Origin: an uncultured Bacteroidales bacterium
GTDB taxonomy: Bacteria > Bacteroidota > Bacteroidia > Bacteroidales > P3
DNA length: 34,772 nucleotides
Assembly: GCA_900314725.1 (NCBI GenBank)
Contig: OMWJ01000017.1
Coordinates: 1-34,772 of the forward strand
Direction: 5' to 3'
Shown: piece after piece, positions 1,214 to 34,192 of the stretch
Numbering within the stretch: position 1 is the first letter of the stretch
Layout: each line of letters opens with the position of its first letter
Position numbers and translations under genes: made by a program
The notes under the pieces: generated by a model
What the model saw: the letters and a program-made list of their open reading frames with translations, nothing else
What the model was told of the DNA's origin: nothing
Database searches by the model: none

Positions 1214-1336
1214 TTTTTCTTTTGATAAAAAAAGAGTTGGTTTAAAAAAATTAACTCTTGATGTTTAGGGTATAAAGAGTTGGTTTTAAAAAATTAAAAC
1301 CAACTCTTTTTTTGCGAAAACGAAGACATTTTTGAA
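1214..1336 (-). repeat. Intergenic inverted-repeat element R1
   Basis: This is one of three related elements, reverse-complemented relative to R2 and R3. It holds the invariant 14-nt core CTTGATGTTTAGGG at 1257-1270, with inverted arms around it. One 17-bp perfect pair is 1227-1243 with 1297-1313. A competing 15-bp perfect pair is 1274-1288 with 1295-1309. The 3' side carries cgaagac followed by a T run, which matches the outer arm of R2. The alignment to R3, 33 kb away, is close to continuous over about 100 bases. Confidence 0.85.
1274..1313 (+). terminator. Hairpin terminator inside R1
   Basis: A perfect 15-bp stem (1274-1288 with 1295-1309, loop aaaaat) runs into a T tract ending at 1313, about 60 bases after the stop at 1212. 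It is a credible intrinsic terminator for the T9SS cargo gene. The left arm is a direct repeat of 1231-1243, so an alternative pairing with the same right arm is possible. Confidence 0.65.
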
Positions 1337-1436
1337 TAAGTCTTTTTAGTATTGACAACATTCTTGAAAAGGGTAAAAAGAAGGATGATATAAAAAAATA
1401 ACTTCATAAAAATTAACTCATTTCAATAACTTGTAG

Positions 1437-1444
1437 TAATTTTG
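1437..1444 (+). promoter_or_regulatory. Promoter -7 box for korAB
   Basis: TAATTTTG fits the Bacteroidota -7 consensus TAnnTTTG and lies 58 bases before the korA start. No good TTTG -33 element is seen at the expected 19-21 base spacing, so only the -7 element is supported. The rest of 1337-1502 is AT-rich and shows no gene. Confidence 0.5.
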
Positions 1445-1502
1445 CAGAATGTTTTCGCAATTGAAAACAATAATATTGAAATAGGAACATACATTTAAAA
1501 TT

Positions 1503-3356
1503 ATGGCAACCAAAGATATTATAAGAAAAAACGATGCTGTTGTCAGATTTGCTGGCGATAGCGGTGATGGAATGCAACTTTCCGGAACTTTGTTTTCTGA
1601 TACTTCTGCCTTAGATGGAAATGATATAGCAACATTTCCTGACTATCCTGCAGAGATTCGCGCTCCTCACAACACAATAGCAGGTGTATCTGGTTTTCAG
1701 GTGCATATTGGAAAAAACATTTACTCTTCTGGTGATAAGGCAGACGTACTTATCTGTATGAATCCTGCATCGCTGAAATCTAATCTAAAATGGGCAACAA
1801 AGGGTGCTACTATCATTGTGGATTTAGATACTTTTACAGAAGATGCTATCAAGAAGGCAGGGTATGAAACCTCTCCATTGGATTCTGATGAGTACTCTTC
1901 ATACAATATTGTGAAGGCTCCTATTACTACTCTCACCTTGGAGGCAGTAAAAGACATATTCACAGACAGAAAGAGTGCATTAAAATGCAGAAATATGTTT
2001 GCCTTGGGAATGATATTCTTCATCTTCGGCAAACAGACAACACATGCAGACGAATATCTACAGACTAAATTCAAAAACAAACCCGAGGTAGTAGAAGCAA
2101 ACCAAAAGGTAATACGCGCAGGCTACAACTATTGCGAGAACATAGATGTTCAAGAAGTGCCTTTGCAAAGATTGGAAGTAGATACTGCAGAAATGCCAAA
2201 AGGAAAATACAGAAACATAACGGGAAATATAGCAACAGCTTGGGGTTTGCTTGCTGCTGCAGAGAAATCTCGCCTAAATCTTTTCCTTGGCTCCTATCCT
2301 ATCACTCCTGCTACTGATATAATGGTAGAGTTAGCAAAAAGAAAGAGTTTAGGAGCAAGAGTATTCCAAGCCGAAGATGAGATAGCAGGCATATGTTCAG
2401 CAATAGGAGCATCATTCGCTGGTGCTTTGGCTTGTACCTCTACTTCTGGTCCTGGACTGTCATTAAAGAGCGAAGCATTAGGCTTAGCGGTTATGACAGA
2501 ACTTCCTTTGGTGGTAATAGATGTTCAGCGTGGTGGCCCTTCTACAGGCTTACCTACAAAAACCGAACAAGCTGACCTAAACCAAGCTTTATTTGGCAGA
2601 AACGGTGAAGCACCTTGTATTGTTGTTGCTCCATCTACTTCTGCGAACTGCTTCTATTGGGCTTTTGAAGCTGCAAGACTTGCCTTGGAAACAATGACTC
2701 CTGTTATACTTCTTTCCGATGCTTATCTTGGAAACGGGTCTCAGTTGTTTAAAATACCAAATATGAGTGATTTCCCTGAGATTCACCCACCATTTGCAAA
2801 ACCTAATGACCCAGATTTCCAACCATACAGACGTGATCCTAAGACATTGGTTCGTCAATGGGCTGTTCCTGGAATGGATGGTTTAAGACACAGAATAGGT
2901 GGCTTGGAAAAGACTGACGGAAAGGGCGAAGTTTCAACAGACAACCTTAACCACGAGAAAATGGTTCATTATCGTAAAGAAAAAATAGACAGATTGGCTG
3001 AACGTCTTCCTTTACAAGAAGTCTATGGAGATGAAGATGCAGAACTACTTGTTGTAGGCTGGGGTGGAACACACGGAGCTTTAAAAACTGCTGTCAATGA
3101 ATTGAGAGCAGAAGGCAAGAAAGTAGCATATACACACTTCCACTATATCTCTCCTTTACCTAAGAACACAGAAGAGATACTTAGAAAGTATAAGAAAATC
3201 GTTGTATGTGAGTTAAATATGGGACAATTCGTAAATTACCTACGAATGAATTATCAAGGAATTATGTTCCATCAATACAACAAGGTTCAAGGCTTGCCTT
3301 TTGAGGTTACTGAATTGAAACAAGAGTTTAATAAAATAATGAACGGAGGAAATTAA
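1503..3356 (+). CDS. korA: 2-oxoacid:ferredoxin oxidoreductase, alpha subunit with fused gamma domain (KorA type)
   Basis: The alpha subunit of a thiamine-diphosphate enzyme that makes acyl-CoA, CO2 and reduced ferredoxin from a 2-oxoacid, most likely 2-oxoglutarate. At 617 residues it has the long form in which the gamma domain comes first (about 10-190, beginning VRFAGDSGDGMQLSG). The pyrimidine-binding domain follows, with LGSYPITPATDIM, QAEDEIAGI and the TSTSGPGLSLKSE loop, and a C-terminal domain with VGWGGTHGAL and HFHYISPLP. It is followed after two bases by the beta subunit. No separate gamma or delta ferredoxin-like subunit is present, as expected for this class. Substrate choice (2-oxoglutarate over other oxoacids) is inferred from architecture. 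Confidence 0.9.
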   Translation: MATKDIIRKNDAVVRFAGDSGDGMQLSGTLFSDTSALDGNDIATFPDYPAEIRAPHNTIAGVSGFQVHIGKNIYSSGDKADVLICMNPASLKSNLKWATKGATIIVDLDTFTEDAIKKAGYETSPLDSDEYSSYNIVKAPITTLTLEAVKDIFTDRKSALKCRNMFALGMIFFIFGKQTTHADEYLQTKFKNKPEVVEANQKVIRAGYNYCENIDVQEVPLQRLEVDTAEMPKGKYRNITGNIATAWGLLAAAEKSRLNLFLGSYPITPATDIMVELAKRKSLGARVFQAEDEIAGICSAIGASFAGALACTSTSGPGLSLKSEALGLAVMTELPLVVIDVQRGGPSTGLPTKTEQADLNQALFGRNGEAPCIVVAPSTSANCFYWAFEAARLALETMTPVILLSDAYLGNGSQLFKIPNMSDFPEIHPPFAKPNDPDFQPYRRDPKTLVRQWAVPGMDGLRHRIGGLEKTDGKGEVSTDNLNHEKMVHYRKEKIDRLAERLPLQEVYGDEDAELLVVGWGGTHGALKTAVNELRAEGKKVAYTHFHYISPLPKNTEEILRKYKKIVVCELNMGQFVNYLRMNYQGIMFHQYNKVQGLPFEVTELKQEFNKIMNGGN

Positions 3357-3358
3357 TC

Positions 3359-4378
3359 ATGATAGAACATTCAAACGTTGCTTTAACCAAAGCTGACTTT
3401 GCGTCAAATCAAATGGTAAAATGGTGTCCTGGATGCGGTGATCACGCTATTCTTGCTGCCGTTCATAATGTTTTCCCTAAGATTAATTATAAGAAAGAAG
3501 ATTACTGTATTGTCTCTGGTATAGGCTGTTCCTCTCGTTTTCCTTATTATGTTAATTCATATGGTTTTCATGGTATTCACGGAAGACCAGCAGCTATAGC
3601 AACAGGGGTAAAGATAGCCAATCCAAATCTTTCTGTTTGGATTACTTCAGGTGACGGTGATAGCACTGCCATTGGTGGAAACCACTTTATGCATCTTATC
3701 CGTAGAAATATGGATGTCAATCTGATAATGTTCAACAACAGAATATATGGCTTGACTAAAGGACAGTACTCTCCGACCACTAAACAAGGGCAGGTAACAA
3801 AGACTTCTCCGTTTGGCGTTATTGACTATCAACTTAATCCTGGCGAGTTGGTTCTTGGAGTAAGAGGTACTTTCTTTGCAAGAGCTATAGATTCTCAAAG
3901 TGCTTCTCTGCAAAAAGTCTGTGAGCGTATGGCTGCCCATGATGGTACTGCTGTTGTGGAAGTTCTTCAAAACTGTATGATATTTAACAACGGAACACAT
4001 GCTGACGTTACTGACAAAGATATTCGTGAAGACAGACAGCTATGGGTTGAACACGGCAAACCAATGATATTTGGTAAGAATAGAGACAAAGGTTTGGTTA
4101 TGGTTGGAAGAAGTCTTAAAGTTGTAAAACTTGGAAATGGTATCACCGAAAAAGATATTATGATTCACGACGAAACAACTGAGGACACAGGTATTCACCA
4201 CATGCTTGCACAAATGCGTCCGCCAGAGTTCCCTATGGTATTTGGTGTTATACGTGCAGTGAAGAAACCTACTTATAATGAAATGTTCAAAGCACAAGAA
4301 GAAGAACAGATACAACACGGTTCTGTTCATAATGTTGATGAACTGTTAAACTCAGGTGAAACTTGGGAGATAAAATAA
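3359..4378 (+). CDS. korB: 2-oxoacid:ferredoxin oxidoreductase, beta subunit (KorB type)
   Basis: The TPP- and [4Fe-4S]-binding beta subunit that pairs with the preceding korA. Cluster ligands are visible as WCPGCGDH near the N-terminus, GIGCSSRFPYY, and a later LQNCMIFNNG. The TPP/Mg motif is GDGDSTAIGGNHF followed by NRIYGLTKGQ. The length of 339 residues is normal for the two-subunit family. The start lies two bases after the korA stop, with a purine-rich aacggagga just before it, so the two are translated together. The C-terminus (PEFPMVFGVIRAV...) matches the family's end. Together with KorA it acts in the cytoplasm and supplies reduced ferredoxin. Confidence 0.92.
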   Translation: MIEHSNVALTKADFASNQMVKWCPGCGDHAILAAVHNVFPKINYKKEDYCIVSGIGCSSRFPYYVNSYGFHGIHGRPAAIATGVKIANPNLSVWITSGDGDSTAIGGNHFMHLIRRNMDVNLIMFNNRIYGLTKGQYSPTTKQGQVTKTSPFGVIDYQLNPGELVLGVRGTFFARAIDSQSASLQKVCERMAAHDGTAVVEVLQNCMIFNNGTHADVTDKDIREDRQLWVEHGKPMIFGKNRDKGLVMVGRSLKVVKLGNGITEKDIMIHDETTEDTGIHHMLAQMRPPEFPMVFGVIRAVKKPTYNEMFKAQEEEQIQHGSVHNVDELLNSGETWEIK

Positions 4379-4405
4379 CTGATTAGAAATAATGTCAAAA
4401 CTATT

Positions 4406-4438
4406 AAAGGTTGCGTTCAGTTTCGCAACCTTTTTTTT
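4406..4438 (+). terminator. Intrinsic terminator after korAB
   Basis: A 10-bp perfect stem, aaaggttgcg at 4406-4415 with its complement at 4424-4433, has an 8-base loop (ttcagttt). The T run continues to 4438. It lies 28 bases after the korB stop, between two convergent genes. Confidence 0.9.
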
Positions 4439-4442
4439 GTTA

Positions 4443-5522
4443 TTATTGTTTTTGTTTTACTTGAGGGTCAAGGTAGCCGTATATTATATCGGTAACAATG
4501 TTTATCAGTACTAAAAATATACAAACAACCAACAAAGAAGCCATAATCACAGGAAAGTCGTATGTCTCCAAACTATTGACTATCACAACTCCCATACCTT
4601 TCCAATCAAATATATATTCAACAAAAACAGCCCCAGCTACTAAAGAAGCGAACCACCCACTGACTGCCGTGATGACAGGATTGAGAGTATTCTTCAAAGC
4701 ATGATGATAGATGACCTGAAATGTTGAAAGCCCTTTTGCCTTAGCAGTACGTATATAATCTTGTTGAAAGACATCGTGCATAGTGCTTTTTGTCAGTTCT
4801 GTTATCACTGCCAAAGGACGAATACCAAGAGTAAGAGCTGGAAGGATAAGGTTCTTTAAACAAATATGTTCTCCCTCGCCCATGTCATCCACTACTTTCA
4901 AAGAACCGAACATAGAAAGATGTGTCCAATCCGATAGTTTGAAGGCAAAGAACCAGGCAATAATAATGGCAGCAAAGAAAGATGGCAAACTCATACCTAT
5001 AGAAGTAATGACCTGAATAAGTCTATCTACCCACGTGTTTATATATATGGAAGAAATACTTCCCAAAATAACTCCTACAACAAAGGCAAACAATATGCTA
5101 GCAAGAGCAAGGATGATAGTATTAGGCAATGCCTCTGAAAGCATTTCACTGACATTTCTTTTACTTTGATAGCTCTGCCTTAGATAAGGTTTTTTTAACA
5201 CTATCTTTGTTGTGCCTAGATTAAGAAGGGTTACAGCAGATGTGTATTTTTGTTTATCAAAATAGAAATAACTTGTTTGTGTAGTAGAGTAAAAAGAAAG
5301 AGGAGAAATATCGTTAAGGTAGTTAAAGTATTGAGTGCTTACAGGTCTATCCAAACCAAGTTCCTTGTGTATTCTATCAACACTTTCTTTGTCAGCCCTC
5401 TGCCCTAACATCATACGAGCAGGATCTCCGGGTAGTATATTAAAAAGAAAGAATACTAAGCTAACTACACCGAAGATAACTAACAAACCGTAACCTAATT
5501 TCCTTAGAACAAAAGAAAACAT
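4443..5522 (-). CDS. ABC transporter permease, DppB/OppB-like
   Basis: An inner-membrane permease of the binding-protein-dependent peptide/nickel type, 359 residues. The N-terminal TM helix and the FFLFNILPGDPARMMLGQRAD segment are typical of DppB-like subunits. After a roughly 100-residue periplasmic stretch there are five further TM helices. The EAA loop is recognisable around TAKAKGLSTFQVIYHHALKN, and the end (DIIYGYLDPQVK) is the usual family end. The gene lies 21 bases downstream of the DoxX-like gene and is probably co-transcribed with it. No second permease, ATPase or binding protein is nearby, so it is an orphan subunit in this window. The substrate cannot be told. Confidence 0.88.
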   Translation of the reverse strand: MFSFVLRKLGYGLLVIFGVVSLVFFLFNILPGDPARMMLGQRADKESVDRIHKELGLDRPVSTQYFNYLNDISPLSFYSTTQTSYFYFDKQKYTSAVTLLNLGTTKIVLKKPYLRQSYQSKRNVSEMLSEALPNTIILALASILFAFVVGVILGSISSIYINTWVDRLIQVITSIGMSLPSFFAAIIIAWFFAFKLSDWTHLSMFGSLKVVDDMGEGEHICLKNLILPALTLGIRPLAVITELTKSTMHDVFQQDYIRTAKAKGLSTFQVIYHHALKNTLNPVITAVSGWFASLVAGAVFVEYIFDWKGMGVVIVNSLETYDFPVIMASLLVVCIFLVLINIVTDIIYGYLDPQVKQKQ

Positions 5523-5543
5523 CTTTTAAACCCTTTAAACGTT

Positions 5544-6686
5544 TTAGAAGTTTCTCCAAGCAAACTTTTCTTTTACCACTGCTTTTTTAATATGAACCAA
5601 TCCCGGATTAGAACGTATCATTGCTTTTATTGCCTTATCATCACAGGAATAGAAAAGGTAATCCTGCAAAGAATATTTTTCAGAAAAATCATACCAATCT
5701 TTTGGACTTGTAGCAGTGATTAATATGATGTTATTTTTTTCTTTATCAAGTTTATTTACATACTGCATCAGACGTTTCATTCCCTTTTCACTTGCTGTCT
5801 TCAAATTCCAGACAGCAATAATATAAAGATCTTGTGTAGTATCCCCTATTACATCAAGGCTTTCATCTTTTACCTCACCTAACTCAACTAAAGAAAAACC
5901 ATCTGCTGCGATTGTATTTGTGTTTATTATTCTTTCCTTGCCTTCTACGTATGTCCAATGTTCTGCAAAGTCAGGGTCTTCTTCATAGGCTTTCATCAAA
6001 GTCCCCTCACCTTCGCTTGCCATTGAGAACTCTTTTTCTTCTCCTGTCGCATTGTTTTTGTAGGTTGCGTATGCTAAAGGTGGTTTTTGCTCATCAAGAG
6101 TTGGAGCCATTTTATTTCCAACCTTCCACGGACGAAAATCTATTATAGGTTCATACATTATGTTTCTAACAGAAAAGCCTACACCTAATATAAGTGCAGC
6201 AATAGTAACCACAAAAGGTAGTCTTTTAGAATAATCTTCTTTCGCTTTTTTGTCAAACATAAATATTCCCATTAGAATAACATCTAATACGATGTTTTTC
6301 CAAAATGTCTGCCAATTGGTCAGCTTTATCGCATCGCCGAAACAACCGCAATCATCAACATTATTTGTCAGTGCGTCTATCAATGTCGTTATTGTAAAGA
6401 AAAGCATAAACAACAAGGCAACCCAACGAACAGGCTTCTTGTAGATATGTAAAAACATTGTAACACCTATCGTGAATTCCATTACACACAAAAACACCGC
6501 TATTATTATCGGAAATGTAAGTGCATCGTTGAGCATAAAACCAAAGCCAAAAACATTAAGATATTCTTCCACTTTGTAAGCAGTCCCCATGGGATCCACT
6601 GCTTTCACAAAACCGGAAAACATAAAAACAAGTCCAAATATTCCTCTAAGGATATAATCTGTTAGTCGCGAAACTTTATCATTCAT
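5544..6686 (-). CDS. DoxX-like membrane protein with thioredoxin-like C-terminal domain (BT_3928-type)
   Basis: A 380-residue inner-membrane protein. The first half has a DoxX/MauE-like four-helix membrane domain: RGIFGLVFMFSGFVKAVDP at the N-terminus and the Cys pair DDCGCFGDAIKL before another helix (about 1-170). The second half (about 200-380) looks like a soluble thioredoxin-fold domain without a CxxC pair: DLYIIAVWNLKTAS, IILITATSPKDW, and SNPGLVHIK, which resembles the cis-Pro region. The family is common in Bacteroidota and its function is unproven; a role in envelope redox or electron transfer is an inference. The gene precedes the orphan permease and has a -7 box at 6707-6714. Confidence 0.78.
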   Translation of the reverse strand: MNDKVSRLTDYILRGIFGLVFMFSGFVKAVDPMGTAYKVEEYLNVFGFGFMLNDALTFPIIIAVFLCVMEFTIGVTMFLHIYKKPVRWVALLFMLFFTITTLIDALTNNVDDCGCFGDAIKLTNWQTFWKNIVLDVILMGIFMFDKKAKEDYSKRLPFVVTIAALILGVGFSVRNIMYEPIIDFRPWKVGNKMAPTLDEQKPPLAYATYKNNATGEEKEFSMASEGEGTLMKAYEEDPDFAEHWTYVEGKERIINTNTIAADGFSLVELGEVKDESLDVIGDTTQDLYIIAVWNLKTASEKGMKRLMQYVNKLDKEKNNIILITATSPKDWYDFSEKYSLQDYLFYSCDDKAIKAMIRSNPGLVHIKKAVVKEKFAWRNF

Positions 6687-6706
6687 ATCTTCTATTTATT
6701 TTTTTG

Positions 6707-6714
6707 CAAAGTTA
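6707..6714 (-). promoter_or_regulatory. Promoter -7 box for the DoxX-permease pair
   Basis: On the minus strand this reads TAACTTTG (TAnnTTTG) and lies 20 bases upstream of the start at 6686. No clear TTTG is seen at the -33 spacing. Confidence 0.5.
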
Positions 6715-6815
6715 GTCATAAATTTTCAATCTCTGCTTTATTTTATCAATAATTTAAAAAGGATTTTATCACTTGTTAATCTGACAGGTCTTGTCTTATT
6801 ATATAGTAAGCATGT

Positions 6816-6853
6816 AAAAAAATCCTCTTGCTTTTTAAAACAAGAGGATTTTT
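6816..6853 (-). terminator. Intrinsic terminator of the TPR gene
   Basis: A perfect 13-bp stem, 6818-6830 with 6841-6853, has a 10-base loop and a U run on the minus strand. It lies just after the TPR gene stop at 6871 and upstream of the next promoter. Confidence 0.85.
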
Positions 6854-6870
6854 ATATCTGATTTCAAAAA

Positions 6871-7596
6871 CTATTTTTCCAATATTGTTTCCATACGAGT
6901 AATGTATTTCTCTATTTGTTGGAATTCTGGAGATGCAGGGTGATTAGTCTTTATCATTTTATAAGTATCTAACGCACTCTTATAATCTTTCTTCATCTCG
7001 TACGCTGTAGCCAACTTCATCAATATAGCAGGTGTAGTAAAATCATTAACATTAGTTGTTGATGCTTTCTTGTAGTAGTTTATTGCTTCGTCAATTTGGT
7101 TTAACTCCATATAGCAATCACCTACTAAACATTTTGCTTGAGAAGCCATGTATGCATCTTTTGGAGAAAAAGATTTTAAATAATCTAATGCTTCTTTGTA
7201 TTTACCTTGTTCAAGATAGATTCTACCAGCGTAATATTTTGCTAATTTGCCTTGCTTTGTAGAAGAATAATCATCACCTATTGCAACAAAACCCATGTGT
7301 TTTCCATCACCCTTTAAAGCTTTATCATATTCACCTTGTATATAATACTGTTCAGCAGCAAACATAGAGTTAGCAGCTTCTTTCTCCTGTGAAGGAATAT
7401 ACCAGAAACTATATAGACAAATCACAACCACAACAGCAACAACAGAAAGCAAAACAATTAAAAGAGTCTTTTTGTTTTTGTTTATGAATTGTTCTGCCTT
7501 TGCAAGTATATCTCCAACTTGAAGGTTCTCATTTTTCTCAACATTTCCGTTGTTTTCCACAACAGTTTTCTTGTTTTCTGTGTCCTTAGTACTCAT
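6871..7596 (-). CDS. Membrane-anchored tetratricopeptide-repeat protein
   Basis: A 241-residue protein with a charged cytoplasmic N-terminus, one strong TM helix (about residues 44-66, LLIVLLSVVAVVVVICLY) and a TPR region beyond it. Repeats are seen as AEQYYIQGEYDKAL, AKYYAGRIYLEQGKYKEAL, AKCLVGDCYMELNQIDEAI and MKLATAYEMKKDYKSAL. The topology resembles YfgM-like periplasmic TPR anchors, which help protein assembly in the envelope; that role is only suggested here. The start MSTKDTENKK at 7596 is chosen; an in-frame ATG four codons upstream (7608) is equally open. It is a single-gene unit with its own -7 box and terminator. Confidence 0.8.
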   Translation of the reverse strand: MSTKDTENKKTVVENNGNVEKNENLQVGDILAKAEQFINKNKKTLLIVLLSVVAVVVVICLYSFWYIPSQEKEAANSMFAAEQYYIQGEYDKALKGDGKHMGFVAIGDDYSSTKQGKLAKYYAGRIYLEQGKYKEALDYLKSFSPKDAYMASQAKCLVGDCYMELNQIDEAINYYKKASTTNVNDFTTPAILMKLATAYEMKKDYKSALDTYKMIKTNHPASPEFQQIEKYITRMETILEK

Positions 7597-7652
7597 TATT
7601 TTAATCAATTATATTCTGTTAAACTTATTTTCCTATTTTTAATTTCAGTTTG

Positions 7653-7660
7653 CAAAAATA
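7653..7660 (-). promoter_or_regulatory. Promoter -7 box for the TPR gene
   Basis: TATTTTTG on the minus strand fits TAnnTTTG and lies about 45-57 bases upstream of the possible starts. No -33 TTTG is seen at the right spacing. Confidence 0.45.
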
Positions 7661-7740
7661 TATCAATTATTTCAAATAGAGAATTTTTTCAATGTTTTTT
7701 ATCAAAAATTCTATTAAATTAAAAAAAAAGTAACTTTTTT

Positions 7741-7772
7741 TTTGTTTGTTTAAATATAATGATGTAACTTTG
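7741..7772 (+). promoter_or_regulatory. Consensus Bacteroidota promoter for the DHOD-like/holB/PBP operon
   Basis: TTTG at 7741-7744, a 20-base spacer, then TAACTTTG at 7765-7772. This is an exact fit to the Bacteroidota primary-sigma consensus. Transcription should start about 5-8 bases further on, which leaves a short leader before the ATG at 7797. It therefore excludes the upstream in-frame ATG at 7746, which lies inside the promoter. Confidence 0.88.
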
Positions 7773-7796
7773 CCTCCTCTAAAAACTTTAATTGAG

Positions 7797-8783
7797 ATGG
7801 ATACAAGCGTTCAATATATGGGAAGGACTATAAAAAGTCCTATAATTGCAGGCAGTTGCGGTAAGACTGCTATCGTAGATAATGTAAAAAAATTAGAAGA
7901 TGCTGGCGTTGGTGCAGTTATTCTAAAGTCTCTTTTTGAGGAACAAGTAACTCAAGAGATAAGTAGCAATGTGTTATCTGCTCAAAATACTGGTGAATTC
8001 TTCGAAGCCTACAACTACATAGCAGAACATACAAAGCACAATCAGTTAAACAACTACTTGGAACTGATAAGAAAATCAAAAGAATGTGTTGATGTCCCTA
8101 TTATTGCAAGTATCAATTGTGTTTCTGCAAGTGAATGGTTGCAATTCGCTCAAAGCATTCAACAAGCAGGAGCAGACGGCATTGAATTAAATATGTTTAT
8201 TATGCCTTCTAATATCAACGTTTCAACAGAAGATGTTGATCAAGTTTATGAAAACACACTACAAATTCTAAAACGTGCTGTTCCTTCCTTGCCTATATCT
8301 CTAAAGATAAGTTCTTATTCTGCTTCCTTGGCTAAACTATGTCAAAAACTCTCTTGGATGGGAATTTCTGCTCTTTCTATATTCAACAGATTTATTGAAC
8401 ACGATATAGATATAGACACTCAAACAGTAAAACCTATAAATATTTTGAGTGATGAAAAAGAACTATACAATACAATTAGATGGACTGCTATCTTATCCAA
8501 ATTAATAAACTGTCCTTTGACTGCTGGAGGAGGTGTTCATAAACCAGAAGACCCTATAAAACTTATTCTTGCTGGAGCAAATACAGTACAAGTTGTATCT
8601 GCATTATATGAACAGGACTTTTCCTTTATTACTAAAGCTAATGAATTCCTAAAAAATTGGATGGAGAAAAATTCTTATAACCGTTTATCTGATTTTAAAG
8701 GTAGATTATCAATAGACAAGAATAGTACTGTTTCTGCATTTTACAGAGTGCAGTATATGAAATATTATGCAGGAATAGAATAA
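7797..8783 (+). CDS. Dihydroorotate dehydrogenase-like flavoprotein
   Basis: A 328-residue TIM-barrel protein related to class 1 dihydroorotate dehydrogenases. It starts MDTSVQYMGRTIKSPIIAGS, the usual beginning of the family, and continues with DAGVGAVILKSLFEEQ, VPIIASINC, GADGIELNMF, LPISLKIS, LTAGGGVHKPEDPIKLILAGA and VQVVSAL (FMN phosphate region). The segment that carries the catalytic Cys loop in true PyrD enzymes (NCPN-type) reads ELNMFIMPSN here, so pyrimidine synthesis by this protein is doubtful. It is best called DHOD-like with unknown substrate. It is the first gene after the consensus promoter; the longer frame back to 7746 is rejected for that reason. Confidence 0.82.
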   Translation: MDTSVQYMGRTIKSPIIAGSCGKTAIVDNVKKLEDAGVGAVILKSLFEEQVTQEISSNVLSAQNTGEFFEAYNYIAEHTKHNQLNNYLELIRKSKECVDVPIIASINCVSASEWLQFAQSIQQAGADGIELNMFIMPSNINVSTEDVDQVYENTLQILKRAVPSLPISLKISSYSASLAKLCQKLSWMGISALSIFNRFIEHDIDIDTQTVKPINILSDEKELYNTIRWTAILSKLINCPLTAGGGVHKPEDPIKLILAGANTVQVVSALYEQDFSFITKANEFLKNWMEKNSYNRLSDFKGRLSIDKNSTVSAFYRVQYMKYYAGIE

Positions 8784-8824
8784 TTCAAAAAAAATTATAG
8801 TAAAAACCAACAAACTTTATCATT

Positions 8825-9289: not shown

Positions 9290-9359
9290 TTATTTCTAAA
9301 AATACTCTATTATTGCTTGCCTTTTATGATTTAGTAGAAGCCTGCAATTATTATCAAAC

Positions 9360-10505: not shown

Positions 10506-10523
10506 AAGCAGAATAAAATAAAT

Positions 10524-22131: not shown

Positions 22132-22138
22132 AAGAATT

Positions 22139-27429: not shown

Positions 27430-27442
27430 AACTAAAAATACT

Positions 27443-28084
27443 ATGAGAAAAAGACAAAAATACTACGTTGTCTGGGTAGGCAGAAAGACAGGTATCTTCT
27501 CTTCTTGGGAGGAATGTGAAAAGAGCGTAGAGGGGTTTGAAAAAGCCAAATACAAATCCTTTGACACCATGAAAGAAGCCCAAGAAGCTTTTTCCATAGT
27601 CGGCTACAATTTCCTTGAACACAAAAAAGAAAAACCGGCAATAAAGCGTAGTCCTAATACGCTTCTTAATGATGGACTGCCTATTATTGATGCTATTTGC
27701 ACCGATGCAGCCTGCAGTGGTAATCCTGGAGAGATGGAATATCAGGGAGTTTATATTAAAACCGGTCAAAGACTTTTTTCTTACCATTCTCCTATTGGTA
27801 CTAATAACATAGGTGAGTTTCTTGGATTGGTTCATGGTCTTTCTTACCTTAAACGCCACAACTATCCTCAGCCTCTCTACACCGACAGCGTCAATGCTAT
27901 AAAATGGGTCAGAGAAAAGAAGTGTAAGACAAAACTACCTTTGAATGCCAAGACAGAAAAACTGTTTGAATACATTCATAGAGCAGAACATTGGCTGCAA
28001 ACCAACACCTACACGACAAAAATCCTGAAATGGGACACTGAAAATTGGGGAGAAATCCCCGCAGATTTCAACCGAAAAAAGTAA
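27443..28084 (+). CDS. RNase HI with N-terminal viroplasmin-like domain
   Basis: A 213-residue ribonuclease H. Residues 1-50 form the small RNA/DNA-hybrid-binding viroplasmin-type domain: KYYVVWVGRKTGIFSSWEEC and KYKSFDTMKEAQEAF. The catalytic domain (about 82-213) has Asp88 in CTDAACSGNPG, Glu125 in NNIGEFLGLVHGL, Asp148 in LYTDSVNAIKW and a last acidic residue (probably Asp208) in WGEIPADFNRKK. This layout is common in Bacteroidota and in eukaryotic RNase H1. It removes RNA from RNA-DNA hybrids. It lies 13 bases after the cargo gene and R2 follows its stop. Confidence 0.92.
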   Translation: MRKRQKYYVVWVGRKTGIFSSWEECEKSVEGFEKAKYKSFDTMKEAQEAFSIVGYNFLEHKKEKPAIKRSPNTLLNDGLPIIDAICTDAACSGNPGEMEYQGVYIKTGQRLFSYHSPIGTNNIGEFLGLVHGLSYLKRHNYPQPLYTDSVNAIKWVREKKCKTKLPLNAKTEKLFEYIHRAEHWLQTNTYTTKILKWDTENWGEIPADFNRKK

Positions 28085-28099
28085 GTCTTAATCCTGCTG

Positions 28100-28184
28100 A
28101 AAAAAGTCTTCGTTTTAAGAAAAAAAGATCAAGTCTTTATACCCTAAACATCAAGTCTTTTTTTCTTAAAACGAAGACTTTTTT
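28100..28184 (+). repeat. Intergenic inverted-repeat element R2 (29-bp perfect arms)
   Basis: Arms 28100-28128 and 28156-28184 are exact reverse complements over 29 bases and flank a 27-base loop. The loop holds the invariant core CCCTAAACATCAAG at 28142-28155 and a direct repeat tcaagtctt at its two ends. The element lies between two convergent genes (stop 28084 plus strand, stop 28260 minus strand) and could stop transcription from both sides. Confidence 0.92.
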
Positions 28185-28259
28185 GAACAAAGGTTAATAT
28201 ATTGATATTCAACACTAAAACAATGGTTAAAAATATTATAAACAGGTTCTGTACATTTC

Positions 28260-29441
28260 CTACTCTATCCTCAGTTTTAGGAATAGATTTTTTGTTTTCC
28301 AAGCATAGAAGACAAATCCTAAGATATGCACTATAGAAATAGAGATAAAGATAACGCTATACCCTAAATGTTCTGCTACAAAACCTCCCAAAAGAATACC
28401 TAAACCTACTCCCAAATCCCATGAAGTAAGAAGGGTGGAGTTGGCTGTTCCTCTTTCGTTGTGTTGTGCTATCTTCACTATCATATTTTGGAAGGCTGGG
28501 TACATGTGGCCGTTGCCTAAGCCTATCAATATCGCAGAGAGATAGTAAGCAAACGAAGAAGGGAAGAAAGCAAAACTAAAATATCCTATGGTAGAAATAA
28601 TTATTCCAACAAAAGCATTATGAGTCAGTCTGCCTTGTTTTAATGCTTTGTTGCCTTGCAGACGAGAAAGAATCAAACCTATTGAAAGCAACATAAAATA
28701 AGTTCCTGTTCCTGTTGTAATGTTCAAGACGTCTTTGCTGTATATAGCGAGGTAGTTGCTCAAGACTCCGTAACAAAGACTGAAAAACACCATATTCACC
28801 GCCAAGAACCAACCTTTAGTCAAGAAAAATCTGTCCAATGAAATCTTTCTTGTGTTTTTCACCAACTCTCTCTGAGGTATGCGTACCGAATAGGAGACAA
28901 AGAAGCCTATGAATGCAAATATAACAGCTAACCAAAAAAGAATATCAAAATTATGAGTGTATTTATATACAAAGACTCCGACTGTAGGTGCTATGGCTGT
29001 TGCTATATTGTTGCTAAGTCCATAGAAACCTATACCCTCATTTCTTCTTGAAGAGGGCAAAACATCTATTGCTACCGTGCTGTTTGATACTGTGCATGCT
29101 CCGAAAGGAGCTCCATGCAGAGTTCTTATGATAGCAAAAAGGATTAGCGAACTTGCCAACAAATATCCTGCGAAAAAGACAGAATAGACGAAGAAACAGA
29201 GTATCAAGACTTTCTTTCTGTTGAATGTATCCACAACATAACCGCTGAAAGGTCTAAAGAATAAAGCTGTAACTACATAACCTGAAAGAACTAATCCAAT
29301 AATATCCTTACTTGCATGAAAATGTTCGCTCAAATATATTGGAAGCAAGGGCGTAAGAAGATAGAAAGCAAAAAACAAAGAGAAGTTTGCTATCATCACC
29401 TTTATGTATTCACTATTCCAAAGTTTTTCTTTAGGCTCCAT
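28260..29441 (-). CDS. Major facilitator superfamily transporter
   Basis: A 393-residue inner-membrane protein with about 12 TM helices. Motif A is visible: GYVVTALFFRPFSGYVVDTFNRKK (the G-x-x-x-D-x-x-x-R/K-K loop between helices 2 and 3). Later landmarks are RTLHGAPFGACTVS, GFYGLSNNIATAIAPTVG and LIGLGNGHMYPAFQNM, of the drug/sugar exporter type. The substrate is not known. The start MEPKEKLWNSEYIKV (29441) is chosen because the longer frame (29468) begins inside the tRNA terminator. Confidence 0.88.
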   Translation of the reverse strand: MEPKEKLWNSEYIKVMIANFSLFFAFYLLTPLLPIYLSEHFHASKDIIGLVLSGYVVTALFFRPFSGYVVDTFNRKKVLILCFFVYSVFFAGYLLASSLILFAIIRTLHGAPFGACTVSNSTVAIDVLPSSRRNEGIGFYGLSNNIATAIAPTVGVFVYKYTHNFDILFWLAVIFAFIGFFVSYSVRIPQRELVKNTRKISLDRFFLTKGWFLAVNMVFFSLCYGVLSNYLAIYSKDVLNITTGTGTYFMLLSIGLILSRLQGNKALKQGRLTHNAFVGIIISTIGYFSFAFFPSSFAYYLSAILIGLGNGHMYPAFQNMIVKIAQHNERGTANSTLLTSWDLGVGLGILLGGFVAEHLGYSVIFISISIVHILGFVFYAWKTKNLFLKLRIE

Positions 29442-29465
29442 ATTCAGAATGTTTAACTCCACAAA

Positions 29466-29499
29466 CAAAAAAAGATGTAAAACCTTAAGCCTTACATCT
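29466..29499 (-). terminator. Intrinsic terminator of tRNA-Asn
   Basis: An 8-bp stem (29473-29480 with 29492-29499) is followed on the minus strand by a six-U run (29472-29467). It lies 9 bases after the tRNA 3' end. It also overlaps the longest frame of the MFS gene, which supports the internal start. Confidence 0.82.
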
Positions 29500-29508
29500 C
29501 TCTTTCTT

Positions 29509-29585
29509 TGGCGCTCCCACTAGGACTTGAACCTAGGACCCCATGATTAACAGTCATGTGCTCTAACCAACTGAGCTACGGAAGC
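29509..29585 (-). tRNA. tRNA-Asn (anticodon GTT)
   Basis: A full cloverleaf is seen on the minus strand. The acceptor is GCTTCCG paired with TGGGAGC (two G-U pairs). The D arm holds GCTCAGTTGGTTAGAGC. The anticodon stem-loop is CATGA-CTGTTAA-TCATG with anticodon GTT, and the T arm is CTAGG-TTCAAGT-CCTAG. The discriminator is G and the CCA end is encoded (29511-29509). The body without CCA is 74 bases. It has a consensus promoter upstream and a terminator downstream. Confidence 0.97.
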
Positions 29586-29605
29586 GTGTCCCTTTAAAAC
29601 GTTTG

Positions 29606-29637
29606 CAAAATTATAATCTTTTTTAATTCTGACCAAA
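29606..29637 (-). promoter_or_regulatory. Consensus promoter for tRNA-Asn
   Basis: On the minus strand: TTTG (29637-29634), a 20-base spacer, TAATTTTG (29613-29606). The -7 box is 20 bases from the tRNA 5' end. The rest of 29638-29794 is very AT-rich with no gene seen. Confidence 0.88.
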
Positions 29638-29794
29638 TTTTTTGAAAAAAAAATAGGTAAAATTTTTAATGAATATTATAATCTCTTGATAATAAGATAT
29701 TAAATAAAAAGTAATGTTGAATATTAATGAATAGAGAATAAAAAGATGTAGCATATAATACTGTTATTATAGTATTCAAAATAAAATTTTGTTA

Positions 29795-29802
29795 TAATTT
29801 TG
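29795..29802 (+). promoter_or_regulatory. Promoter -7 box for the small membrane protein
   Basis: TAATTTTG fits TAnnTTTG and lies 26 bases before the ATG at 29829. No good -33 TTTG at 19-21 bases. Confidence 0.5.
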
Positions 29803-29828
29803 CAGACAGCAAAAAAAGGAAAACAGCA

Positions 29829-30275
29829 ATGAAACAGTATTTAGACAGTTTAAAGACTATATGGTTAGTCAGTTTTATAGCCAATGCTTTTGTTTTGGTA
29901 GTTGTATGCTTGTATATCTTTTCACCAATAGCGACTACAGGGTATAATCTTTTATTCATTAGACTTGCATACGCAATACAATTGATTGCAGTTGTGCTTT
30001 CTTTGTTCGCAAGCAGGAGATACAGAAACAAAGTGCAAACTCTAAAAAACATAGAAAACGTAAATGACAGACTGTCTGCATATAAAAAACTCTACAAACA
30101 GACTCTTTTGTTTTCAAGTCTGTTGTTTTTAGTTTCCTCTCTTGCCTTGTTTCTGTCAAGCTCCACAGAGTTTATAATCATTCCTATTGCCCTACTCCTT
30201 TTATTGTTTTTGAAACGCCCCTATCTTATAAAACTCAAAATGGAACTTGCTCTATCTAACGAAGATGTAAAATAA
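29829..30275 (+). CDS. Small four-helix membrane protein, unknown
   Basis: A 148-residue protein not recognised. About four hydrophobic helices are visible: WLVSFIANAFVLVVVCLYIF (about 12-31), LAYAIQLIAVVLSLFA (about 46-61), TLLFSSLLFLVSSLALFLSS (about 92-111) and EFIIIPIALLLLLFLK (about 113-129). The loop between helices 2 and 3 is basic (RRYRNKVQTLKNIENVNDRLSAYKKL), so it is probably cytoplasmic. It stands alone with a -7 box in front and faces the convergent cargo gene. Good codon structure and promoter support a real gene. Confidence 0.65.
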   Translation: MKQYLDSLKTIWLVSFIANAFVLVVVCLYIFSPIATTGYNLLFIRLAYAIQLIAVVLSLFASRRYRNKVQTLKNIENVNDRLSAYKKLYKQTLLFSSLLFLVSSLALFLSSSTEFIIIPIALLLLLFLKRPYLIKLKMELALSNEDVK

Positions 30276-30297
30276 GAAAAAAATAATTCTAACAGCT

Positions 30298-31866
30298 CTA
30301 TCTAATAACTTCAAAACTGCCGGTGAAATCCATAGTGTCTTTGCCGTTGGTCGCTGTAAATCTATAGAAATAAGTTCCACTTGGAGCATTGACCTTGTGA
30401 GGTGAGAAGAAGTCTTCAAAGTTCTTGATATTCATTTTATCATATATCTTTTTGCCAGAACGATTATATATCACCAGATGAGTATGTGTGTAACATTCTT
30501 GTTCTAACAAATCCTTGATTTCAAAGACATCATTTATTCCATCACCATTTGCCGTCACAACAGTAGGAAATCTCAGGTTGATAACCCGCAAATCCAAGAC
30601 AATAACACTGTCACAACCCTCAATAGTCGTGAGTGTTTGGGTATATATTCCTGTTTCTTTTTCCGAAAAATTATTTTCTAAATATGTTTTGCCTTTTAGT
30701 ATTTGTGCGTGTATAGTGTCTGAATAAGAAGGATGCGTTACTACATTCACAGAAAAAATAGTGTCGATAAAATTTATAGAGTCTTTGTAAGAAAATATAT
30801 GAACACCTCCATTATTTATTGCATTATCTCTAAAATACAAAGGAAAATCTTCCTCACATGCAGAAATATCAACAAGAGTATCAAAAGGAGTAAATTCGTT
30901 TATTACCGATATATTTATAGTATCGTATGCATAACAAATTTCTTTCACTTCTAAGGAATCCAATATATAGAAAGCATTACTAAAACCTCCTGTTGAAGCT
31001 TGAATAGCTTTAAGTTCTATCTCTATAGTGTCGTTTGGTACATAAAATCTCTCAGTTCTGCTGTGATGAAAATTGTTCCCTCCTTGAAGAAATGTCTGAT
31101 AAAGAAAATAGTCGCAAGACCAATACCAATAATCTACCTCTCCATTATCAAAATGTGCTGCAAGCATATTCTCTTCGTAAATTTGGGAGTTTATATACAG
31201 TCTCTTTAGAGTGGAAGCCCAGCCCTGTTGATAACAATTATGAACGGGATTTCTATCAGAATAATAAAACACATAGTCTTTTTGAGGACTTACTTGAAAC
31301 TTTGTTTTATATATTGTTATAGTATCTTGTTGATGTGCTTTGTCATGAGGTACTACCATAAGAGCATTAGTTCCATTGCTTATGGATGTTACAACGTTAT
31401 TAGCAAATGTTGTATGACATATATCAGAAACAAAATCCGACGTAGAAACACCTATATTATAGTGACCACTATTATATAGAAGCGTATCTGATATTGATAA
31501 AGAACTATCCACGCTAAAACCTGTAAAACCATCATCAAAATATGGATTAGGAATATAATTGGTATCTCCTATAAATCCAGCCTTGACTACATATTGATTA
31601 GTATCTCCGGGCTGCAGAGTTACTGTTATTGTTGGCGAACAAGAATCTATTATTTGCCCATTGCAATACCAAGTATAATAGTCTGCACTATCATCAGTGG
31701 AAAGTGTTATCTGTATAGGGTCTGTAGAAAATAGAGCAGTATCTCTTGGAATAATACTTATACTGCATTCATTTTCTTGACAATAAGCAGAAAATGACGC
31801 CATAAAAGCAACTATTAATAATAGTATTCTTTTGACAGAAAAAATAATTCCAAAAGTTTTATCCAT
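30298..31866 (-). CDS. T9SS type B cargo protein
   Basis: A 522-residue exported protein. The N-terminus has a signal peptide (KRILLLIVAFMASFSAYC; the start MDKTFGIIFSVKR gives a basic region before it). The middle has Ig-like segments, e.g. ITLSTDDSADYYTWYCNG and YVVKAGFIGDTNYIPNPYFDDGF, which resemble the usual beginnings of gliding-motility-tail proteins. The C-terminal ~90 residues form the type B sorting domain: PTVVTANGDGINDVFEIKD, HLVIYNRSGKKIYD, and GTYFYRFTATNGKDTMDFTG with the end FEVIR. Function is unknown. It lies 46 bases downstream of the SAM-hydrolase gene and is probably transcribed with it or from a weak promoter between them. Confidence 0.85.
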   Translation of the reverse strand: MDKTFGIIFSVKRILLLIVAFMASFSAYCQENECSISIIPRDTALFSTDPIQITLSTDDSADYYTWYCNGQIIDSCSPTITVTLQPGDTNQYVVKAGFIGDTNYIPNPYFDDGFTGFSVDSSLSISDTLLYNSGHYNIGVSTSDFVSDICHTTFANNVVTSISNGTNALMVVPHDKAHQQDTITIYKTKFQVSPQKDYVFYYSDRNPVHNCYQQGWASTLKRLYINSQIYEENMLAAHFDNGEVDYWYWSCDYFLYQTFLQGGNNFHHSRTERFYVPNDTIEIELKAIQASTGGFSNAFYILDSLEVKEICYAYDTINISVINEFTPFDTLVDISACEEDFPLYFRDNAINNGGVHIFSYKDSINFIDTIFSVNVVTHPSYSDTIHAQILKGKTYLENNFSEKETGIYTQTLTTIEGCDSVIVLDLRVINLRFPTVVTANGDGINDVFEIKDLLEQECYTHTHLVIYNRSGKKIYDKMNIKNFEDFFSPHKVNAPSGTYFYRFTATNGKDTMDFTGSFEVIR

Positions 31867-31912
31867 ATATTACTATTGACAATAAAAGGTAGTATTTTGT
31901 TGCAAAATAAGT

Positions 31913-32698
31913 TTATTTAATAAATATATCAATATTGTTTCCGACTTTATAGCCAAGTAGTTTTGCAAAGTTACCTTCTCTTAATGCAAGTTCAAGATTA
32001 CCTGTTACGGAAATGGTTAGTAGAGCATCTCCTTTGGAATTAACATCTTGATAACTCAAAGCAAGTTTGTTTATAATATAGTGATTACCTATAGGCAACT
32101 CAAACTGTTTTCCTCCAAGAATTCTTTCAAACTCTTTGTCATCTATATTTAAATAAGCATTACCATAATCATCTATATAAACAATAGTGCAACGTATTAT
32201 GTTATCTCTTATATATGCCAAAGAAGAAGTGCTTTTTATGGCAAACTCTTCTTGCTTTTCGCCTATGGTTTCTAAAGAGTGTGTGTTGGCAAGTATCTTT
32301 GTTATCTTACAGAAGTTGTCCCACACTGCAAAAGTGTAGAAATCTCCATCGGAATAGATATGTTTTGTATTGTATATTTCTACATCTATATCCTCAAAAA
32401 TCAAAGATGGCAAACCGTTATCAGTACAGATATAGAACTGATTATTTGCTTTTACAACAATGAAAGCATAGTCTTTGCTTTCAAAAGTGTTTATATCTAT
32501 AATATGTATCGTGTTTTCAGGAAAATTTAAACAAGCATTCTTTACAACAAAAGCAGCAGGAAGAATATCAAATTTCTTTATACCATGGGTTATATCCACT
32601 ATGTTTACATCTGGAATATCCTTAAACAAGCGTGATTTCACCAACCCAGCATAAAAATCTTTTTCTCCCCAATCTGTAGTAAGCGTAACTATTTGCAT
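31913..32698 (-). CDS. SAM hydroxide adenosyltransferase (DUF62 family)
   Basis: A 261-residue protein of the duf-SAM hydrolase family, which splits S-adenosylmethionine into adenosine and methionine. It begins MQIVTLTTDWGEKDFYAGLVKS, the family's normal start. Other marks are VDITHGIKKFDILPAAFVV, NTIHIIDINTFESKDYAFIVV, CTDNGLPSL, VYIDDYGNAYLNID and the C-terminal LELALREGNFAKLLG. The Asp in TTDWG and the Arg/His pair typical of the active site (ITHG) are present. The long frame to 32800 is rejected: it crosses the -7 box at 32737-32744 and adds 34 residues with no family match. Confidence 0.87.
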   Translation of the reverse strand: MQIVTLTTDWGEKDFYAGLVKSRLFKDIPDVNIVDITHGIKKFDILPAAFVVKNACLNFPENTIHIIDINTFESKDYAFIVVKANNQFYICTDNGLPSLIFEDIDVEIYNTKHIYSDGDFYTFAVWDNFCKITKILANTHSLETIGEKQEEFAIKSTSSLAYIRDNIIRCTIVYIDDYGNAYLNIDDKEFERILGGKQFELPIGNHYIINKLALSYQDVNSKGDALLTISVTGNLELALREGNFAKLLGYKVGNNIDIFIK

Positions 32699-32736
32699 AG
32701 ATTTGATTTTAGTTGAATGTTTATTTTTTCCTTTTG

Positions 32737-32744
32737 CAAAGTTA
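32737..32744 (-). promoter_or_regulatory. Promoter -7 box for the SAM-hydrolase gene
   Basis: TAACTTTG on the minus strand, 38 bases upstream of the start at 32698. It faces a plus-strand box at 32785-32792, so the two genes share a divergent control region. Confidence 0.5.
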
Positions 32745-32784
32745 CATCTTTTTTCTTTATAATTATTAATTCTAAACTTTTTTC

Positions 32785-32792
32785 TATCTTTG
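32785..32792 (+). promoter_or_regulatory. Promoter -7 box for the PAP2 gene
   Basis: TATCTTTG fits TAnnTTTG, 26 bases before the ATG at 32819. It lies inside the longest frame (ATG 32717) and so argues against that upstream start. Confidence 0.55.
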
Positions 32793-32818
32793 CAATACAA
32801 AAAAAAGACACAATCTTT

Positions 32819-34054
32819 ATGCGTTTATCTCCATACAATATAGCTAAAAAGAATAATCTTAGTGTAAAAAATATTGTCATCTTTCTTGTATTTCTAAGTC
32901 TTTGTCCATTTCTTTCAGCACAAAATATAAAAAAAAATAAGTTTGATAAATTCTTAGACAACAAGATTACAAATATAACCCTGCTTTCGGCTCCTCTTTT
33001 TGCTGAAGGACTGTTTTTTAAGAATGATAAGATAGACTTTAGAAACTTTCAACAGATACATCATCCAAACTTTCATACACAGATAGATAATTACACTCAA
33101 TATTTTCCTTTGGCTCTAACCTTTGGACTTAAAACTGCAGGAGTAGAAAGCCATTCTTCTTGGAAGCAATTTCTGTTCTCTACATTTATGTGCTACGCTT
33201 TAGACTACTCTATTGTGAAAACGATGAAACATAATATTTATGAAAAACGTCCTGATATTTCTGGCAACAACTCTTTTCCTTCTGGCCATACTTCGTTTGC
33301 TTTTATGAATGCTCATATTTTTGTAAAAGAATATGCACAAGACAATATCTTGTATTCTTCTTTAGCATATTCCATGGCAACATTTACAGCCTGCATGAGA
33401 GTTATGAATCAAAGACATTGGGTTGGTGATGTCTTGGCAGGAGCAGGCATAGGCTTGTTCTCCGCAGAAAGCATTTATTGGCTAAGCGATAAACTCTTCA
33501 ACAATAGAAATAATATTCCTTTGCAAGAATACAGCTTTTCTCAAAAACGTTGGTTTTTCAATATATCCACAACCTATAACTTTTCTTTCAATAAATATGA
33601 AATAAAAGACAAAGGACCTATGAAATTCTTGAATGGCGGTGCTGTAGGATTAGAGGGAGAATATTTTTACAATCCATATTTAGGCTTAGGGCTGAATGGA
33701 GACTATGCTTGTTACAGATACTACGCTCCTAATGCATGGGAAAAGTATGATATAGCTTTGTATTCTCTCAACCTTTCCCACTATTTTGCATTGCCATTAA
33801 ACAACCGTTGCTCTGTCGGTGGCAGACTTGGAATAGGCTTGAACTACTTAGAACACTATAAAAAGTTTTATCACCGTGTCCCTTTCCAAACAAATTTCAG
33901 ATATAACTTAGGCTTAAATGCTTCTCTGCGTCTTACAGAAAACACCATATTCAGACTCTATGCAGATTACACACATACAAAGATTGATGTAGAAAACGAA
34001 AATATTCCCTTCAAAACCATTAACATTGGCTCGTGTATAGTGCTGACTTTGTGA
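32819..34054 (+). CDS. PAP2-family phosphatase with C-terminal predicted outer-membrane beta-barrel
   Basis: A 411-residue protein. The start MRLSPYNIAKKNN at 32819 gives a signal peptide ending FLSAQ. The PAP2 domain (about 60-220) shows all three motifs: KHNIYEKRP (K-x6-RP), FPSGHTSF (PSGH), and RVMNQRHWVGD (R-x5-H-x3-D). The last part (about 240-411) is strand-rich with alternating aromatic residues, e.g. RWFFNISTTYNFSFN, GAVGLEGEYFYNP, GLGLNGDYACY, GRLGIGLNYLEH, FRLYADYTHTK, and ends TINIGSCIVLTL. That pattern fits a small outer-membrane beta-barrel. A phosphatase tied to the outer membrane is inferred; lipid A or another lipid phosphate could be the substrate. Confidence 0.82.
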   Translation: MRLSPYNIAKKNNLSVKNIVIFLVFLSLCPFLSAQNIKKNKFDKFLDNKITNITLLSAPLFAEGLFFKNDKIDFRNFQQIHHPNFHTQIDNYTQYFPLALTFGLKTAGVESHSSWKQFLFSTFMCYALDYSIVKTMKHNIYEKRPDISGNNSFPSGHTSFAFMNAHIFVKEYAQDNILYSSLAYSMATFTACMRVMNQRHWVGDVLAGAGIGLFSAESIYWLSDKLFNNRNNIPLQEYSFSQKRWFFNISTTYNFSFNKYEIKDKGPMKFLNGGAVGLEGEYFYNPYLGLGLNGDYACYRYYAPNAWEKYDIALYSLNLSHYFALPLNNRCSVGGRLGIGLNYLEHYKKFYHRVPFQTNFRYNLGLNASLRLTENTIFRLYADYTHTKIDVENENIPFKTINIGSCIVLTL

Positions 34055-34095
34055 TATATCCTCATATCAAAGAATCTATCACAAATCTTGCTCAA

Positions 34096-34192
34096 AAAAG
34101 TCTTCGTTTTAAAAAATTAAAACCAACTCTTTACACCCTAAACATCAAGAGTTAAATTTTTTAAACCAACTCTTTTTTTCATCAAAAGAAAA
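34096..34192 (+). repeat. Intergenic inverted-repeat element R3
   Basis: The left arm aaaaagtcttcgttttaa is that of R2. The core CCCTAAACATCAAG is at 34136-34149, and the right half matches R1 in reverse. Pairing is aactctt 34125-34131 with aagagtt 34147-34153, or that same aagagtt with aactctt 34168-34174 followed by a T run. The element follows the PAP2 stop by about 40 bases. Confidence 0.85.
34147..34179 (+). terminator. Hairpin terminator inside R3
   Basis: aagagtt (34147-34153) pairs with aactctt (34168-34174), and a T run continues to 34179. It could end the PAP2 transcript. A competing stem uses the same left arm with 34125-34131. The stem is only 7 bp and AT-rich, so the call is moderate. 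Confidence 0.45.

Follow-up and report, generated by a model that had tools for sequence, protein, structure and literature searches.

The window analyzed here is a 34,772-nucleotide stretch of an uncultured Bacteroidales bacterium (contig OMWJ01000017.1, positions 1 to 34,772), in which three intergenic repeats, R1, R2 and R3, were described by the initial annotation as a three-copy element sharing a 14-nt core. All three are located just past a stop codon. R1 begins 14 bp past the stop of the open reading frame (ORF) at 289-1212, the C-terminus of which resembles, by its motif, a sorting domain of the type IX secretion system (T9SS). R2 sits between the convergent ORFs 27443-28084 (+) and 28260-29468 (-), and R3 begins about 39 bp past the stop of ORF 32717-34054. 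A scan of the window against Rfam at gathering thresholds found nothing at R1-R3 and matched only a tRNA at 29512-29585. As detailed below, R1-R3 are members of a large dispersed family of intergenic elements, each an array of short words joined by linkers (Table 1).

Table 1. Repeat arrays and their parts in the window (R, reverse word; F, forward word).
Feature	Position	Strand	Remarks
R1 four-word array	1227..1313 (~87 bp)	-	R-F-F-F on core strand; model match 1223-1313, 83.0 bits
R1 linker and word	1257..1270	-	exact core
Extra words flanking R1 (CGAAGAC, AAGTCTT)	1319..1347	.	off main lattice; weaker + strand model match 1272-1347
R2 four-word array	28098..28188	+	model match 78.6 bits; Tandem Repeats Finder period 22 at 28128-28184
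R2 linker and word	28142..28155	+	exact core
R3 four-word array	34093..34180	+	model match 81.5 bits; outer words of different types
R3 linker and word	34136..34149	+	exact core

Words, linkers and size of the repeat family

The core, CCCTAAACATCAAG, is present in three exact copies in the window, as the initial annotation had it, and the two kinds of arm that it assigned to R1 and R2 and found mixed in R3 are there as well. A search of the whole genome (29 contigs, 1.96 Mb) recovered 28 exact copies of the core and none of a reversed-pattern control; with up to two mismatches allowed, there were 74 sites compared with 7 for the control. Among 15 sites with one mismatch, which were taken genome-wide with the membership of each in an array not verified, the change fell at positions 1-4 in 11 and at position 14 in four, with none at positions 5-13. 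Since the changes are confined in this way, AAACATCAA is the constant word and the CCCT preceding it acts as a variable linker. The 14-nt core combines a linker (ACACCCT) with a single word drawn from a larger grammar, and its apparent invariance is partly a product of using the core itself as the search query.

A sequence-only model was built from the 28 aligned exact-core copies. With 150 of the 3491 first-look candidates in the same genome scored, it returned at least 179 matches (E ≤ 0.1). We examined 93 places, comprising the 28 exact-core copies, five near-core copies and 60 further ones; the model matches considered were the best 150 of the 179. The arrays at these places share a small vocabulary. 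They contain 412 words, the commonest of which include AACCAACTCTTTT, AACGAAGACTTTT, AACCAAGTCTTTT, GATCAACTCTTTT and CATCAACTCTTTT, and their commonest linkers include ACACCCT, GCATAT and TAGTAT. The words are about 14 bp long and imperfect, and the linkers are a few bp long, near-fixed in length and freer in sequence. In 17 arrays, identity was 0.81 for words and 0.58 for linkers (an excess of 0.24 vs 0.17 by permutation). Within stretches of 320 bp, four words were found in 37 arrays, five in 24, three in 13, six in 13 and seven in four, with one array each of one and two words. The commonest form is thus a four-word array of about 86 bp that is flanked by A and T runs.

The orientation of the words was tabulated by slot, A to D, for 80 of the 93 arrays, model matches shorter than 80 bp being left out. 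Slot A was reverse or near-palindromic in 66 of the 80, slot B was forward or near-palindromic in 71 and slot D was so in 75. These counts indicate that the end words of the array of about 86 bp are mostly inverted to each other. AAAAAATT and AATTTTTT interchange by flips in the hairpin loop.

Spacing of the words in the genome and in the genus

The distances between word centers in the 93 arrays fall into a few sets: 21/22, 43 and 64-65 bp between two forward words, 25, 47 and 68 bp for reverse-forward pairs, and 18, 39-40 and 61 bp for forward-reverse pairs. A minor set at 15, 36 and 58 bp comes from flanking words. Both orientations fit a single lattice with a phase score of 0.677 at 21.4-21.5 bp (603 word pairs), while 40 random placements reached at most 0.166. 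A length of 21.5 bp corresponds to two helical turns of DNA.

We surveyed other genomes without a sequence model by masking ORFs of at least 100 aa and recording, for intergenic segments of at least 70 bp, the best self-match at lags of 12-35 with a threshold of 0.60. In 13 genomes of the same genus, 41 of 155 segments were periodic. The period was exactly 21 bp in 24 and 22 bp in 14, or 38 of the 41, with words that differ, and one segment each had a period of 13, 17 and 23. Dinucleotide shuffles of these segments yielded 5.0 periodic segments at any lag and 0.2 at 21/22. The 21/22-bp signal was present in 11 of the 13 genomes, and the two negative ones contributed one and six segments. The corresponding counts elsewhere were 6 of 104 segments for other genera of the family, 3 of 55 for other families of the order and 1 of 99 for other orders and classes. 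In a smaller first sample, 23 of 25 periodic segments were at 21/22. At 31 named Bacteroidales loci around korA (92 segments; L165 and L166, which are not Bacteroidota, were left out), 18 of 19 periodic segments were at these lags. As the korA loci come partly from the same genomes, this survey and that of the 13 genomes are not independent. Our comparison by eye of the region upstream of korA found the window region unrecognizable in the 11 related loci printed, so that no empty site could be read there. By korA in named records, the window falls within an uncultured genus of gut Bacteroidales, apparently one to which Candidatus Scybalousia scybalohippi belongs; identical match coordinates suggest a link of the latter to genome G007.

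Tandem Repeats Finder gave a similar picture. Periods of 21 or 22 accounted for 33 of 45 intergenic repeats in the genus sample (one had a period of 23) and for 7 of 9 in that of the genome itself, compared with 7 of 19 repeats that lie within genus ORFs, 8 of 24 for other genera, 1 of 9 in other families and 1 of 4 in the class and phylum. The 36 genus repeats with a period of 21, 22, 42 or 44 were 40-91 bp long apart from one of 161 bp, and 12 were within 79-91 bp. One 20-kb stretch of genome G013 held six repeats with a period of 21/22, four of which were 85-87 bp long, or about four units.

The exact core was not found in 60 relatives, including the 13 of the same genus, or in 60 further genomes of the phylum. 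The R1 model at E ≤ 0.001 matched three of the 13 same-genus genomes (seven times in G007, twice in G008 and 15 times in G010) and had no match in 27 other genomes searched outside the genus. The relatives' loci inspected carry other words on a 21-bp unit. In six of 13 loci inspected out of 19 (L119, L120, L122, L123, L127 and L133), R-F-F-F or its reverse complement occurs at neighboring positions; the model was derived from R-F-F-F arrays and favors such loci.

Several individual arrays were of additional note. Longer near-palindromic words (CATATG, CATAATGGCATTATG, CTATGTTGGCAACATAG, TTGCAAGTCGGACTTGCAA) with 22-bp spacing were seen at L183 (G013), L182 (G012), L149 and L177 (G007). L162 contains, at about 6722-6810, a near-perfect 22-bp tandem array (AAAAGGTATATAGGTTTTCCCT) of 11 units with degenerate outer ones and a best run of 0.98 self-match, which is likely a recent expansion. 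At about 1501-1670 of L125 (G010), there is an exact 21-bp array of seven words in one orientation, in which AAATCAAGTTT, AAACGAAGTTT and variants alternate.

Pairing between words and genomic setting of the arrays

The initial annotation held that all three copies still form inverted repeats and that pairing is kept while the arms change. R2 has an outer stem of 29 Watson-Crick pairs and one G-U pair and the strongest predicted fold of the 28 exact-core copies (-36.9), and R1 forms a good hairpin. In R3, however, only 4 of 7 positions agree between the outer words, and none of the 28 copies has a weaker predicted fold (-10.8 kcal/mol). Most exact-core copies have stable predicted folds. We examined covariation between words in 27 of these copies, leaving out L026 because of an indel. 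The outer words A and D showed none: 5.26 of 7 positions were paired compared with 5.20 for permuted right ends (p = 0.43), and 8 copies were fully paired compared with 7.6. The adjacent words A and B were associated (6.22 vs 5.85, p = 0.0014). When right halves were swapped between the 80 arrays, the predicted energy was unchanged (z = 0.1), and it was equal or lower in 151 of 300 permutations. By subset, z was 0.4 for the 52 arrays without the exact core and -1.6 for the 28 with it (18 of 300 permutations).

The 30-pair stem of R2 was also counted over all 28 exact-core copies. Pairing was 79.0% compared with 77.0% after shuffling (5 of 500 shuffles), cells with both sides changed numbered 38 compared with 27.1 (3 of 500) and the covariation score was 0.113 compared with 0.089 (5 of 500); an excess of this size is within what kinship among the copies can give. 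At the three columns by which the word types are told apart, the copies without a pair numbered 12, 14 and 14 of the 28. We take the excess to be a weak association inside one subfamily and not a maintained stem. There is no family-wide constraint on long-range pairing, and the proposal that the arms keep their pairing was not borne out.

With regard to location, 88 of the 93 arrays lie between ORFs, with convergent pairs flanking 25 of them, codirectional pairs 44 and divergent pairs 19. Two of the others are inside called ORFs and three are at a contig edge or have no neighbor. Background gaps of at least 100 bp in ten 20-kb stretches were distributed 8/24/14 over the same three classes. At least one ORF 3' end is adjacent to 69 of the 93 arrays, and in codirectional gaps 30 of 44 arrays are closer to the upstream stop, a bias that fits promoter avoidance as well as termination. 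The location at 3' ends, noted initially for R1-R3, is accurate for these three and does not extend to the family as a whole. In the 11 exact-core copies within codirectional gaps, the core was on the gene strand in three and on the opposite strand in eight.

A second repeat family was observed at both ends of the contig (1-288 and 34276-34772), where CCCCGCACTTCGTT..CACT.CGTACGGAGCGA occurs with AACTTTTTTAATA and was noted by eye in three places. This family is possibly the reason why the assembly broke there.

Interpretation and comparison with known repeats

We tentatively favor, with somewhat less than even confidence, the explanation that the arrays are phased sites for a putative DNA-binding protein and have spread in the manner of miniature inverted-repeat transposable elements (MITEs). 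A two-turn period that is kept in both orientations, and across species with differing words, points to something that measures DNA along the helix. Near-fixed linker lengths place words of either orientation on the one 21.5-bp lattice. Each word would be the contact site of an architectural or regulatory protein, the units of which would line up next to one another along a single face of the helix. Word sequences would drift along with the protein, while gene conversion or MITE-like movement would spread the copies and homogenize them. The A/T-run boundaries may, as a side effect, give rise to terminator activity at some 3' ends.

Several observations weigh against this explanation. The words in slot C are divided between forward (37 of the 80 arrays) and reverse (31), and the order R-F-F-F is found in only 24 of the 80, with R-F-R-F in 16. 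Conservation of words over linkers reaches p ≤ 0.05 in only 5 of the 17 arrays compared. Different arrays inside one genome can use unrelated words, which is unexpected under a single sequence-specific protein. The family is narrow by sequence, as judged from the R1 model. The plain lag test in the genome itself placed 6 of 63 segments at 21/22 and three at other lags, a low yield that we attribute to the mixing of 21 with 22 and of orientations in this test. No candidate protein was identified, and no systematic search for one was made.

Alternatively, the arrays could be a non-functional minisatellite or MITE-like element that arises by slippage and by strand switching at inverted words, the two-turn unit being an unselected by-product of copying. 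We consider this possible but rather unlikely. The flips of AAAAAATT and AATTTTTT in the hairpin loop, the array-specific words, the dispersal of copies with a common vocabulary, the exchangeability of halves between arrays and the non-significant word conservation in 12 of 17 arrays are all consistent with it. Yet slippage alone would not explain why 38 of 41 periodic segments have a unit of 21-22, nor would it hold both orientations to one lattice. As for the means of movement, the genome has two integrase-family genes and no Y1/RAYT transposase, other transposase families not having been searched for, and neither R1 in phages and plasmids nor one 23-base pattern in viral contigs found a match.

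That the arrays are bidirectional intrinsic terminators, in which words able to fold, with an A run on one side and a T run on the other, stop transcription from either direction, appears improbable to us. The proximity to 3' ends in the family, the placement of R1-R3 past stop codons, with R2 between convergent genes, and the stable predicted folds of most exact copies would suit such a role. On the other hand, divergent ORFs flank 19 of the 88 classified arrays, the mix of classes is not far from the background (no test was run), the halves show no pairing constraint and a terminator has no need of a fixed two-turn period. Of the two readings offered by the initial annotation, a protein-binding DNA element would better fit the two-turn phasing common to both orientations, while a structured RNA in which the loop is fixed and changes in the arms compensate each other is, in our judgment, very unlikely. 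The near-perfect stem of R2, the small excess of paired cells in exact-core copies and the association of words A and B speak for the RNA. The lack of covariation between outer words, the interchangeable halves, the poor fold of R3, the absence of an Rfam match and the preponderance, in codirectional gaps, of cores on the strand opposite to the genes argue against it.

Extending the explanation by phased protein sites, we propose, with a little more reserve, that a genus of gut Bacteroidales shares an intergenic element defined by geometry rather than by its sequence. It would consist of a two-turn lattice of mostly up to about four units, the vocabulary of which is replaced between species, and it may act as a DNA ruler set by a putative fast-evolving protein that binds DNA or builds the arrays. 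Most dispersed bacterial repeats are recognized by sequence; here the spacing persists while the sequence turns over, and ordinary homology searches therefore miss the arrays, as seen from the sequence model, which reached 3 of 13 genomes, and from the period test, which reached 11 of the 13. Should a protein underlie the spacing, the arrays would offer numerous existing probes for it; should a copying mechanism underlie it, they would preserve a clear record of the way in which two-turn duplications come about. An array is carried by 38 of the 155 sampled intergenic segments of at least 70 bp in the genus, or about one in four, which makes the arrays relevant to annotation and to promoter and terminator work in these uncultured bacteria.

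Other origins were considered and rejected. A search for Y1_Tnp (PF01797), the only transposase family searched, had no match in the genome and was positive as a control in 5 of 14 genomes, which removes a partner of the REP-associated tyrosine transposase (RAYT) type (REP, repetitive extragenic palindrome). Shuffling by a tyrosine recombinase was suggested by the resemblance of words with linkers of 6-8 bp to recombination core sites; there are only two integrase-family genes, the number expected of a XerC/XerD pair. Translation of the 21-bp arrays in G010 can give LKSSF-like peptides, and one frame of the L125 array gives a heptad peptide. Heptad coding was rejected as a general cause because 22-bp arrays fall out of the codon frame; given the remaining lags of 13, 17 and 23, the periods include no multiple of three other than 21. 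Carriage by phages or plasmids was rejected given the unmatched searches above, and curvature by A tracts was rejected since some arrays (L142 and L149) have none by eye. Clustered regularly interspaced short palindromic repeats (CRISPR) have repeats and spacers of about 25-40 bp, and words of about 14 bp with linkers of a few bp do not fit; cas genes were not searched for.

Direct repeats of 22 bp are present in Porphyromonas gingivalis. Our literature search, with most subscription papers and all preprints outside its coverage, turned up no account of arrays phased at 21/22 bp in this group. The comparisons that follow draw on the available portions of the papers cited. The arrays resemble satellites in being species-specific non-coding tandem families (PMC6749651); in the main text of that study, supplements aside, the terms 'Bacteroidetes', '21 bp' and '22 bp' do not occur. 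The TAACTGA direct repeats, for which five Bacteroidetes were included, are likewise abundant and intergenic in some bacteria by a mechanism that is not known (PMC4679880). They are nonetheless simple 7-bp repeats near start codons in the main species, and a two-turn lattice is not described for them. REP and bacterial interspersed mosaic elements (BIMEs) with RAYT (PMC3733652, PMC2817692) are also numerous, short, dispersed intergenic palindromic units of alternating orientation, whereas the units here are on a 21.5-bp lattice in a genome without a Y1_Tnp match. The BrickBuilt MITE of P. gingivalis (PMC4596501) has a 23-nt unit with leader and tail subunits and 19 copies in ATCC 33277, and it has homologues in P. 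gulae and no BLASTn match reported beyond. In contrast to BrickBuilt, the unit here is 21/22 bp, the words are numerous and occur in both orientations, and the same period is found across the genus with differing words; our 28-copy alignment of 94-nt stretches showed A/T runs only and no leader or tail subunits. The two have in common that they are dispersed intergenic elements of Bacteroidales made of short tandem units with inverted ends and stem-loop potential, although in the arrays here the intergenic position and the inverted ends are usual and have exceptions. BrickBuilt is the nearest described element that we found in the order.

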